Source of the DNA: Pseudomonas sp. MYb185 | GTDB taxonomy: Bacteria; Pseudomonadota; Gammaproteobacteria; Pseudomonadales; Pseudomonadaceae | DNA: 64,000 bases | Assembly: GCF_002979975.1 (NCBI RefSeq) | Contig: NZ_PCQD01000003.1 | Location: 372,001-436,000, forward strand | Direction: 5' to 3' | Part shown: piece after piece, positions 2,628-43,905 of the stretch | Layout of the letters: each line of letters begins with the position of its first letter | Numbering within the stretch: position 1 is the first letter of the stretch | Notes under the pieces: generated by a model | The model's input: only the letters and a program-made list of their open reading frames with translations | What the model was told of the DNA's origin: nothing | Databases searched by the model: none | Translations under genes and position numbers: made by a program

Positions 2628-3164
2628 ATGTCAGAGACAATACATCCTTTTGACCTTCTCCAGCAGTTGGCGGCGCGTTGTCGCCAGCTGGCCAGCGGCC
2701 TGCCGGCGCAGACCGCCGTGGCCGAGACCTGGAGCGGGGTCGGTTTCAGTCTGGCTGGCCAGACCATGGTGGCAGCCATGGGCGAGGTCAGCGAGATTCT
2801 CCATGAGCCGCGTTATACCGCCCTGCCCAGGGTCAAGTCCTGGGTCAGAGGGGTAGCCAACGTACGTGGCCGGCTTCTGCCGATCATCGATCTGAGCCAC
2901 TTCTTCGGTGCCACGGCCAGCGCGCCGCGCAAGCAGCGCCGGGTGCTGGTGCTCGACCGTGACGATCTGTTCGTCGGTCTGCTGGTCGATGAACTGTTCG
3001 GCATGCAGCATTTTCCAGTAAGCAGCTTTACCACCTCGGTGCCTGCCCTTGCGGAACGATTCGGGCCATTTGTGGTGGGTGCCTATACCGGGGAGCAGAT
3101 ATCACTGATATTCAATTTCCGGGCATTGGCGCGCGACCAGGCGTTCCTTGACGTGGCGATCTGA
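2628..3164 (+). CDS. pilI: CheW-like coupling protein PilI
   Basis: Adapter that links the receptor PilJ to the histidine kinase ChpA. It is a single CheW domain of 178 residues, the same length as I recall for the P. aeruginosa protein. The conserved [19 protein letters not shown] segment of the CheW fold is clear at about residues 69-87. The gene follows pilH by 45 bp and its end precedes pilJ by 85 bp, so it belongs to the same transcription unit. Confidence 0.95.
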
Positions 3165-3249: not shown

Positions 3250-5286
3250 ATGAAAAAGCTTGATACCAACATACTGTCCACTTTGCGCAGCAACCGTACG
3301 ATCAGTGGCCTGTTCGCCGCGCTGATCCTGTCGTTGATCCTGCTGTTCATCAACTTCGTCTATGTGAACGTGCAGAGTTCCTACGATACCGAATACATCG
3401 GCCACTCCGGGGAACTGCGGGTACTGTCCCAGCAGATATCCAAGTCGGCGACCGAAGCGGCCACTGGCACCCGGGAAGCCTTCGGCCTGCTGCTGGAGGC
3501 GCGCAACGACTTCGAGCAGCGCTGGGGCTACCTGACCGATGGGCGCGAGGAAACCGGCCTGCCGCCGACACCGGACACGCTGCAGGAGCCACTGGCACGG
3601 GCCCAGGCCGACTGGGACAAGGTACGTGGCAATGCCGACGCCATTCTCAACAGCCAGAACACGGTACTGTCGCTGCACGAGGTGGCCGCGACCCTGTCCG
3701 ACACCGTACCGCAGCTGCAGATCGAGTACGAGGATGTGGTCGACGTGCTGATCGAGAGCGGCGCGCCGGCCGACCAGGTGTCCATCGCCCAGCGCCAGTC
3801 ACTGCTGGCCGAACGTATCCTGGGTTCGGTGAACCGGGTACTGACCGGTGATGATGATGCAGTATTGGCGGCGGACAGCTTCGGTCGTGATGCCAGCCTG
3901 TTCGGCCGGGTACTGGAAGGCATGCTGCACGGCAACGAGGTGATCGGCGTCAGCCAGGTGACCGACCCCGATGCGGTGGGCCGGCTGCAGGAAATCGCCG
4001 ACCTGTTCGGCTTCGTCGCCGAGTCGGTGGACCAGATCCTGTTGACCTCACCGGAGTTGTACCAGGTGCGTTCGGCGGCAAACAGCATCTTCACCGATTC
4101 GCAGGTGCTGCTGGACAACGTATCGGACCTGTCCGCGGCTTTCGAACAGCGTAGCGACGCGCGCTGGGTCAACACCCTGCTCGGCTATCTGCTGGGTCTC
4201 ATCGCGCTGGCCAGCATTCTGCTGATCGGTGTGCAGATGACCCGTGAAACCCGCCAGCGTCTGGCCGAGACCGCTGCCACCAACGAGCGCAACCAGGCGG
4301 CGATTCTGCGTCTGCTCGATGAGATCGCCGACCTCGCCGATGGTGACCTGACGGCGGAGGCTACGGTAACCGAGGACTTCACCGGGGCCATCGCCGACTC
4401 CATCAACTACTCCATCGACCAACTGCGCGCACTGGTGGAAACCATCAACCATACTGCCCTGCAGGTAGCCGCCGCGGCCCAGGAAACCCAGGGTACGGCC
4501 ATGCACCTGGCCGAAGCCTCCGAGCACCAGGCCCAGGAAATCGCCGGCGCCTCGGCGGCGGTGAACGAGATGGCGGTGTCCATCGACCAGGTATCGGCCA
4601 ACGCCTCCGAGTCCGCCGCGGTAGCGGAGCGCTCGGTAGCCATCGCCAACAAGGGCAACGAGGTGGTGCAGAGCACCATTGCCGGCATGGACGTGATCCG
4701 CGAGCAGATCCAGGACACCTCCAAGCGGATCAAGCGCCTGGGTGAGTCGTCCCAGGAGATTGGTGACATCGTCAGCCTGATCAACGACATCGCCGACCAG
4801 ACCAACATCCTGGCCCTCAACGCGGCGATCCAGGCCTCCATGGCCGGTGACGCCGGCCGGGGCTTCGCGGTGGTAGCCGACGAGGTACAGCGCCTGGCGG
4901 AACGTTCTTCGGCGGCGACCAAGCAGATCGAGGCGCTGGTGAAGACCATTCAGACCGATACCAACGAGGCGGTGATCTCCATGGAGCAGACCACTTCGGA
5001 AGTGGTCACCGGTGCACGTCTGACCCAGGATGCCGGGGTTGCCCTGGAGGAAATCGAGAAGGTATCCACCAGCCTGGCGGCGCTGATCCAGAACATTTCC
5101 AACGCGGCACGGCAACAGGCGTCCTCGGCGGGTCATATCTCCAACACCATGAACGTGATCCAGGAGATCACCTCGCAGACCTCGACGGGTACCTCCACCA
5201 CGGCACGCAGCATTGGTGAGCTGGCCAAGCTGGCCGAGAGCATGCGTCAGTCGGTGGATGGCTTCACCCTGCCAGGGCAGGGCTGA
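3250..5286 (+). CDS. pilJ: Methyl-accepting chemotaxis protein PilJ
   Basis: Receptor of the Pil-Chp pathway. The start ATG at 3250 follows a GGGGCC(A)GAAA stretch and gives 678 residues, close to the 682 of P. aeruginosa. The order is: TM1 at about 17-40, a periplasmic part with two helical PilJ-type sensory modules, TM2 at about 332-352, a HAMP-like linker, then the signalling coiled coil with hairpin tip [20 protein letters not shown]. The Gln-Ala-Ser-Met variant at the tip (others have EAARAG) is typical of PilJ. An in-frame start 102 bp upstream overlaps pilI and is unlikely. Confidence 0.96.
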
Positions 5287-21690: not shown

Positions 21691-21800
21691 CCCGTCATTG
21701 CGAGCCCGTAGGGCGTGGCAATCCATGAGCTCGGAGTGGCTGATGGGCGCTGGATTGCCCCGTCGGCGGATGGCCGCCCCTGCTCCTCGCAATGACGGGG
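21691..21800. repeat. 110-bp nested palindromic element (REP/MITE-like)
   Basis: The outer arms CCCGTCATTGCGAG (21691-21704) and CTCGCAATGACGGG (21786-21799) are a perfect 14-bp inverted repeat. Inside, GGCAATCCA (21717-21725) and TGGATTGCC (21751-21759) form a second perfect 9-bp repeat. The element fills the gap between two convergent genes. Repeats with a CGTCATTGCGAG terminus and a GGCAATCC core are dispersed in many proteobacterial genomes, so this is probably one copy of a small non-coding repeat family. No flanking target duplication could be made out. Confidence 0.75.
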
Positions 21801-21801
21801 T

Positions 21802-22266
21802 TCAACCCTCACCGGCAAACCCCTGCTGGCGCCACGCCTCATAGACCAGCACCGCCGCGCTGTTGGACAGGTTCAGGCTGCGATTGCCCGGATGCATGGG
21901 AATGCGCAGCACCTGTTCGGCGGGCAACCCCTCGCGCACCTCTGCCGGCAGGCCGCGGCTCTCCGGGCCGAACAGGAACAGATCTCCCGGCTGGTAGTGC
22001 ACCTCGCTGTAGCATTGCCGACCCTTGGTGCTGAGCGCGAACACCCGGTTCGGGCGCACGCTGGCCAGGCAACTGGCCAGATCGGCATGGGTCTGCACCG
22101 GCGCGTACTCATGGTAATCCAGCCCGGCGCGACGCAGTCGCTTGTCGTCCAGCTCGAACCCCAACGGTTCGATCAGATGCAACTGGCAACCGGTATTGGC
22201 ACACAGGCGAATGATATTGCCGGTATTGGGTGGGATCTCGGGCTCGAGCAGAGCGATATGAAACAT
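21802..22266 (-). CDS. trmL: tRNA (cytidine/uridine-2'-O-)-methyltransferase TrmL
   Basis: SPOUT-class methylase that modifies the wobble base 34 of two leucine tRNAs. The 154 residues have [19 protein letters not shown] at the N-terminus and the knot motifs [10 protein letters not shown] and [13 protein letters not shown] near the C-terminus. It follows the ntrBC operon in the same direction but is separated by a terminator. Its 3' end abuts the palindromic repeat. Confidence 0.95.
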
Positions 22267-22343
22267 GACGGGCTATCCGCAGGCAGGAAAACCCGGGGAG
22301 TGTAACCGGGAGGGCCGCATGAAAATAGTCGGGAAAGGGCTAT

Positions 22344-22396
22344 AAAAAAAGGCGACTCCAGCCTGCCTGAACCGAAGTCACCCCAAATACACCCAC
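22344..22396 (-). ncRNA. nrsZ: Probable NrsZ-type nitrogen-regulated small RNA
   Basis: On the minus strand, in the gap between ntrC and trmL, a sigma-54-type promoter (22406-22421) is followed by about 50 bases ending in a 7-bp stem (GGTGACT with AGTCGCC, one G-T pair) and seven T residues. This has the shape of a short transcript with an intrinsic terminator. In P. aeruginosa the NtrC/sigma-54-dependent RNA NrsZ is encoded immediately downstream of ntrC. The boundaries and name are inferred from position and promoter type, not from an alignment. The stem-loop could alternatively serve only as the ntrC terminator. Confidence 0.6.
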
Positions 22397-22405
22397 TACA
22401 GACTA

Positions 22406-22421
22406 AGCAGTAACCATGCCA
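22406..22421 (-). promoter_or_regulatory. Sigma-54 promoter downstream of ntrC
   Basis: Read on the minus strand the sequence is TGGCATGGTTACTGCT. GG and GC are separated by exactly ten bases, as sigma-54 holoenzyme requires, and most flanking consensus positions match. It overlaps a TGCCAT/ATGGCA inverted repeat (22416-22431). The predicted start is near 22395, just before the NrsZ-like stem-loop. Confidence 0.65.
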
Positions 22422-22441
22422 TTTTTATGGCAACGGCATGA

Positions 22442-23871
<1,430 letters not shown>

Positions 23872-23875
<4 letters not shown>

Positions 23876-25168: not shown

Positions 25169-25185
25169 TGCACCAAAATGGTGCG
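25169..25185. promoter_or_regulatory. Near-consensus NtrC-binding site upstream of ntrB
   Basis: TGCACCAAAATGGTGCG differs at only two positions from the enteric NtrC consensus TGCACTAAAATGGTGCA and keeps the GCAC-N7-GTGC dyad. It lies just after the stop of the DUF4124 gene, in the leader of ntrBC, and points to autoregulation of the operon by NtrC. Confidence 0.75.
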
Positions 25186-27494: not shown

Positions 27495-27510
27495 AGCAAA
27501 AGGTGTGCCA
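27495..27510 (-). promoter_or_regulatory. Sigma-54 promoter of glnA
   Basis: Minus-strand TGGCACACCTTTTGCT matches the sigma-54 consensus (TGGCAC-N5-TTGC) at every conserved position. The predicted transcription start is near 27484, giving a leader of about 96 bases before the glnA ATG. Confidence 0.88.
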
Positions 27511-43677: not shown

Positions 43678-43893
43678 GCCTCTCCCCCTGTCCTTTTACC
43701 TGAGAGTTTACGCAGTCACAGACTGCTTGCCCCTTCGGTGGGTTGCTCGGGCAACCTCTCTCCAGCTGGCGGTACGGTCGCATGGAAAGCGCCTCGGCGG
43801 CGCCTGTCAGGCTTCCTGATATGGTTCGCAGTAACTGTGCCTGAGCGATTATGGGAGTTTGCGCCTTCGGCGGGGGTGGTTGCCCCTCTCTCC
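43678..43893 (-). ncRNA. Tandem glycine riboswitch
   Basis: On the minus strand two similar aptamers follow each other. The first starts at 43893 with GGAGAGAGGGGC and contains CGCCGAAGGCGCAA and GCTCAGGCACAG. The second starts at 43763 with GGAGAGAGGTTGC and contains CACCGAAGGGGCAAGC and CTCTCAGGTAAAAGGACAG, the hallmark glycine-aptamer core. A short linker with the hairpin GCGCCGCCGAGGCGC joins them. The second aptamer ends about 24 bases before the TRIC start codon, so control of translation initiation is likely. Confidence 0.95.
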
Positions 43894-43905
43894 TGCGAGC
43901 CGGCG

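Follow-up and report, generated by a model that had tools for sequence, protein, structure and literature searches.

A predicted single-hairpin small RNA gene related to NrsZ behind ntrC in Pseudomonas sp. MYb185 and its genus

NrsZ is a nitrogen-stress small RNA known from Pseudomonas, about 226 nt long with several stem-loops, which is processed and which activates rhlA and swarming. According to two reviews (PMC8395346, PMC9308961) it is encoded between ntrC and PA5126 and is induced by NtrB/C with RpoN and then processed, and in P. aeruginosa its first 60 nt, which include stem-loop I, are functional by themselves; ACAGGCAG is given there as the conserved NrsZ motif that acts on rhlA. Another RNA pertinent to the comparison, NfiR of P. 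stutzeri A1501, is according to PMC6606865 NtrC-dependent, 54 nt long and endowed with a functional stem-loop. We consider here the region behind ntrC in Pseudomonas sp. MYb185 and its relatives, which in all likelihood holds a conserved NrsZ-related small RNA gene whose function we infer.

The window, as the whole stretch of 64,000 nt analysed is called below, carries on its minus strand a gene for a nitrogen response regulator and sigma-54 activator (22442-23875) that we take to be ntrC, judging by the protein itself and by its neighbours ntrB and glnA. The downstream neighbour of the predicted RNA (21802-22266, minus) is presumably a trmL-like tRNA methyltransferase gene, the name that the initial annotation also uses. 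Read along the minus strand, the ntrC stop is followed by 20 nt, the sigma-54 -24/-12 element TGGCATGGTTACTGC (22421-22407), an 11-nt spacer and UGGGUGUAUUUGGGGUGACUUCGGUUCAGGCAGGCUGGAGUCGCCUUUUUUU (22395-22344); the last is the predicted small RNA of 52 nt, running from a +1 near 22395 through the last U of the tract and delimited by a conserved block and by the covariance model R1, both discussed below. From the predicted start an 11-nt leader, in which GGGUGUA (22388-22394, minus) lies outside the hairpin, leads into a hairpin followed by seven U (together 22384-22344, minus): the stem-loop (22384-22349), with the loop (UU)CAGGCAGG, is also the terminator hairpin, and the U tract (22350-22344) completes the intrinsic terminator. 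The 52 nt at 22396-22345 fold with -20.6 kcal/mol (z = -3.75), a stability reached by none of 200 shuffles. The initial annotation had proposed such a unit, with an exact GG-N10-GC on the minus strand right after the ntrC stop, a stem-loop and seven Ts behind it, and a transcript of 50 to 60 nt with one stem-loop; element, hairpin and seven Ts are where it had put them, and the predicted length of about 52 nt, with one module, agrees with it at the level of sequence.

Taken singly, these signals are not significant. Matches to a one-mismatch sigma-54 pattern, which had been fitted to the TGGCATGGTTACTGC site itself, number 13 in the window with 10.7 expected; a stricter consensus with two mismatches allowed gives 16 against 16.1 expected; and the terminator match is the single one in 21700-23000, for which 0.7 would be expected. 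The promoter and terminator matches alone are at chance level, so that the evidence of the initial annotation was suggestive only. What lifts the unit above chance is its conservation in the genus, its covariation and its match to NrsZ.

Conservation was followed in a sample of 37 genomes of the genus, which yielded 35 readable ntrC loci, the window's own included; of the other two genomes, G004 carries an incomplete ntrC where a contig ends, and G015 yielded no ntrC ortholog. Element, variable spacer, leader, hairpin and U tract follow one another in the same order in 28 of the 35 loci, with the element before the hairpin and its GG and GC invariant in all 28; the selection of rows demanded the GG-N10-GC form, yet no hairpin-bearing locus failed that form. 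The window's version, TGGCATGGTTACTGC, is weaker than the element of most relatives, many of which have TGGCACGCTTGATGC. A near-invariant block, 51-53 nt long, begins at the predicted +1, which in 23 loci follows the GC by 12 nt and in the other five by 13. In the spacer (first 10 nt after the GC) the mean is 0.91 bits with one of ten columns invariant, and over the 20 nt that follow the U tract it is 0.29 bits with none of the 20 invariant, so the conserved stretch is bounded by the predicted +1 and the last U of the tract, the pattern that a transcript would leave. Within the block the seven columns of GGGUGUA are identical in the 28 loci, the loop is CAGGCAGG in 27 of them (L005 is without the first C), and the U tract has 7 to 9 U in 27 and six in one. 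Among the 20 distinct sequences 99.6% of the 260 stem cells are paired, with both-sided changes in six of the 13 pairs; the covariation score of 0.43 is matched by none of 500 shuffles, which ignore the relatedness of the sequences, and slid controls gave 0.13 or less.

Some features that might have been given a meaning fared less well in the same 28 loci. The TGCCAT/ATGGCA dyad, offered by the initial annotation as a possible regulatory site, is present in the window and is probably incidental, because the window's own locus is the only one of the 28 to have it. AAYAAYAA is the Crc/Hfq motif and CANGGAYG that of RsmA; neither occurs in any of the 28 transcripts, and the reading as a sponge for Crc/Hfq or RsmA was dropped.

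R1 was built from the 20 distinct sequences of the genus's 28 RNA loci. It has a single match in the window's genome (82 bits, E 2.4e-15) and finds 28 of the 37 genus genomes, with one match each (E <= 0.01) at 66 to 84 bits. Since it was trained on these 28 their recovery is expected; more telling is that none of them gave a second match and that the remaining nine genomes gave no match at all, seven of them with ntrC intact and two, G004 and G015, in which a complete ntrC ortholog was not found. Among 145 genomes drawn evenly from the order, and under stricter filters, R1 matched the window's own genome only.

How close is this RNA to NrsZ? A covariance-model search for NrsZ, which the initial annotation had put forward as a check, was run with RF02695 and matched the first stem-loop only (22382-22351, model positions 13-46), with 17.8 bits, E 0.0064 for 201 bases and no non-standard pair marked; the Rfam gathering score is 76.9 bits, and a gathering-level search of the whole window for NrsZ reports none. 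The loop motif is UCAGGCAG in the window versus ACAGGCAG in NrsZ, one letter changed. Of the proposed NrsZ-type reading, then, homology to stem-loop I, loop motif and sigma-54 element hold up, and a full NrsZ does not, at 17.8 versus 76.9 bits and with one module. Like NrsZ of P. aeruginosa, the predicted RNA lies behind ntrC on the same strand, has a sigma-54-type promoter and has the stem-loop I hairpin with an AGGCAG loop. Unlike NrsZ, with its several modules and about 226 nt, it has one module and about 52 nt, the hairpin is in this genus fused to a terminator of 6-9 U, and the leader GGGUGUA is its own. The name of an NrsZ-related, single-module, terminator-fused variant therefore fits it better than that of a full NrsZ. 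A terminator-fused single-hairpin NrsZ is not described in the available parts of PMC8395346, PMC9308961, PMC6321483, PMC7291925 and PMC6606865, all from the open-licence PMC literature.

NfiR is alike in being an NtrC-dependent RNA of similar size with a functional stem-loop (NtrC dependence being only predicted here), and differs in its locus, which PMC6606865 places at PST2408-PST2409, beside a putative nitrite reductase gene, and in the 11-nt pairing sequence quoted by that paper; on these two grounds we set aside its identity with the RNA of the window. Other Rfam matches (AniS, BTnc201, BTnc049, HBV_epsilon) had E of 1 or more and were dismissed as chance.

Other genera of the family carry Pseudomonas-type NrsZ. 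In a family-wide draw of 198 genomes, at least 33 of them from the window's genus, the Rfam NrsZ model had matches (E <= 0.01) in 131, with 60 over the cut-off. Five matches fell in the window's genus, at 20 to 21.5 bits and each at the R1 place; in a whole-genome search of the window's own genome NrsZ does not reach the E 0.01 threshold. Since no genome of the genus is over the Rfam cut-off in this draw, the RNA is likely to be unannotated there. Of 274 genomes drawn evenly from the class, a single one had an Rfam NrsZ match, and it belongs to the same family. R1, in a family draw of the same type, matched 47 of 198 genomes, 26 of the window's genus and 21 of other genera, the latter at 28 to 33 bits though the model was built from its own genus only. 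The four of these 21 that were read (L155-L158) all proved to be NrsZ modules preceded by a sigma-54 element; eight of the 21 places, including two of the four read, coincide with Rfam NrsZ matches, and two in genus g254 that do not coincide with any may be chance.

The NrsZ loci compared from other genera number 37 and are not a random set (two named, L111, four R1 matches and the 30 best Rfam matches). Behind the promoter they have one CAGGCAGG module in 5 loci, two in 3, three in 12, four in 14 and five in 3, counts that hinge on the counting pattern, a different pattern having given somewhat other numbers; each module is followed by a run of 2 to 6 U. The single-module relatives among them (L155-L157, L111 and L032) are like the window's RNA in having one module, in promoter spacing and in loop core, and differ in having only 4-5 U after the module. 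By eye, L155-L157 and L111 have a separate hairpin behind the module, followed in L155-L157 by a U run, and the arrangement of these last three could be intermediate.

The consensus of the NtrC site is TGCACC-N5-GGTGCA. Within one mismatch of it the 64 kb window has two sites, 22691-22707 and 25169-25185, a number not significant alone (0.5 expected; at least two also turned up in 10 of 100 shuffles). The first is a candidate NtrC palindrome, AGCACCAGCCTGGTGCA (minus), which lies within ntrC itself, in coding sequence, some 300 nt upstream of the predicted start. A palindrome occupies the same codon position in 27 of the 28 loci with the RNA and in none of the seven without it, presence being 9 or more of 12 letters, a threshold set after seeing the data (Fisher p 1.2e-6, kinship ignored). 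On a tree of ntrC (receiver and central domains, linker left out, outgroup including P. putida and P. entomophila) the distribution of the RNA needs three changes, at least two of them forced by well supported branches, so that two or three losses are implied. In two independent pairs on such branches the site follows the RNA in 1.6 on average and opposes it in 0, and with two to three independent contrasts the tree offers too few for significance of the association. The palindrome may be kept by coding constraint alone. Partial palindromes (8 to 10 of 12) lie upstream of NrsZ promoters in many loci of other genera, the chance level for 8/12 palindromes being about 1.2 per sequence in window-like sequence.

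Other elements of the window are worth recording. The second NtrC-like palindrome, TGCACCAAAATGGTGCG (25169-25185), lies about 200 nt upstream of ntrB, a position that suggests ntrBC autoregulation; a sigma-54-like element, TGGCACACCTTTTGCT (27495-27510, minus), lies about 100 nt upstream of glnA; and at 43678-43905 (minus) there is a tandem pair of glycine riboswitch aptamers, each above the Rfam gathering score.

Could the hairpin be a mere terminator of the ntrBC mRNA, with a promoter-like element there by coincidence? Hairpin and U tract do lie directly 3' of ntrC, and chance sigma-54-like matches are common in the window, but a mere terminator needs no invariant loop, no GGGUGUA leader and no GG-N10-GC in 28 of 28 loci, and the loop found matches the NrsZ motif. 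A simple terminator would have only stem pairing and U tract conserved; the alignment of the 28 loci has in addition a near-invariant loop and an invariant leader, and so conservation goes beyond a simple ntrC terminator, one of the points on which the initial annotation had staked its proposal. We consider this explanation improbable. There is likewise only a small chance that the RNA is cut from the 3' end of the ntrC mRNA and has no promoter of its own. The unit begins less than 50 nt from the ntrC stop, so read-through ntrBC transcripts would contain the RNA; against an origin by processing stand the conservation of the promoter element beside a variable spacer and the position of the NrsZ promoter in other genera, 71 to 400 nt behind ntrC in the 16 measurable loci.

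That the element instead serves trmL, as a leader element or attenuator, is very improbable. It would draw on CCTGCCTG in the window's trmL leader, complementary to the loop, and on CTGCCTG between ntrC and trmL in three loci (L001, L002, L007), but these three are all that have the complement among the 27 loci that were read as far as trmL, and the trmL leader is thereby out as a cis target of the loop. Linkage to trmL is moreover loose, the RNA being kept in five of 28 loci with no same-strand trmL found nearby (no trmL match in the fetched stretch in four, opposite strand in one). A conserved small protein gene is hardly credible at all: an 18-codon frame of the window does begin with a GTG, one base ahead of the predicted +1, but the stem pairs covary, and we rejected the reading on the lack of ATG in any of the 28 transcripts and on one-base leader indels that shift the frame.

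Repeats are a further feature of the ntrC-trmL gaps. L028 has arrays of 7-nt direct repeats behind the RNA terminator (3029-3129, 4220-4263), for instance AGCTGGA x14, and by eye 7-nt repeat arrays are also present in the gaps of L014, L017, L018, L020, L022 and L025.

Pattern searches for the complements of loop and leader, in ten and seven genomes of the genus respectively, turned up no conserved target that convinces. The loop complement GCCTGCCTGAAC (ten genomes) occurs at 30 places, nine of which are the RNA itself, and the reversed-pattern control at none, an excess that cannot be told apart from codon usage. The one setting in which it recurs is the coding sequence of ilvE, in five of the ten genomes, the window's not among them (L192, L196, L198, L199 and L209, near 1500 in each; the name ilvE comes from NCBIfam and from L199 alone); a 12-nt perfect complement of the loop there lies in a conserved coding frame and is possibly codon conservation only. 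The leader complement AAATACACCC (seven genomes) occurs at 54 places, six being the RNA itself, with 15 for the reversed control. Thirty of the 54, including two that are the RNA itself, were examined as loci, and 21 of these 30 are read as the codons AAA-TAC-ACC of an open frame at least 80 codons long; coding frames probably explain the excess. In three of the seven genomes AAATACACCC is found at a gene end, 63-66 nt before the next gene start (L220, L225 and L235, near 1500).

With the anatomy, conservation, covariation and stem-loop I homology read directly from the sequences, we think it quite probable that the unit encodes a small regulatory RNA, some 52 nt long, that shares ancestry with stem-loop I of NrsZ and is controlled by NtrC and sigma-54. 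The steps that we infer, from transcription and NtrC/sigma-54 control to base pairing, Hfq and targets, would be these. On nitrogen limitation phosphorylated NtrC, probably bound to the palindrome within its own gene, would turn on sigma-54 polymerase at the element (22421-22407). Transcription would run from near 22395 to the hairpin and U tract (22344), giving an RNA with GGGUGUA as an invariant, single-stranded leader and a lone hairpin behind it. That one hairpin would do both jobs, ending transcription and presenting in its loop the CAGGCAG by which the RNA would base-pair with CUGCCUG-like sequences of target mRNAs; the leader perhaps pairs with mRNAs too, and Hfq would probably sit on the U tail. 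A more venturesome account of its origin is tentative, and we would give it slightly less than an even chance: the genus would have reduced a multi-module NrsZ to a 52-nt RNA whose terminator is the regulatory hairpin, gained a second seed in GGGUGUA and an enhancer inside the coding sequence of the activator, and lost RNA, promoter and enhancer together two or three times.

The genus appears to carry a natural version of the functional truncation of NrsZ to its first 60 nt. As such it would be a compact test case for the working parts of NrsZ, for a hairpin that is both terminator and regulator, and for evolution by module number.
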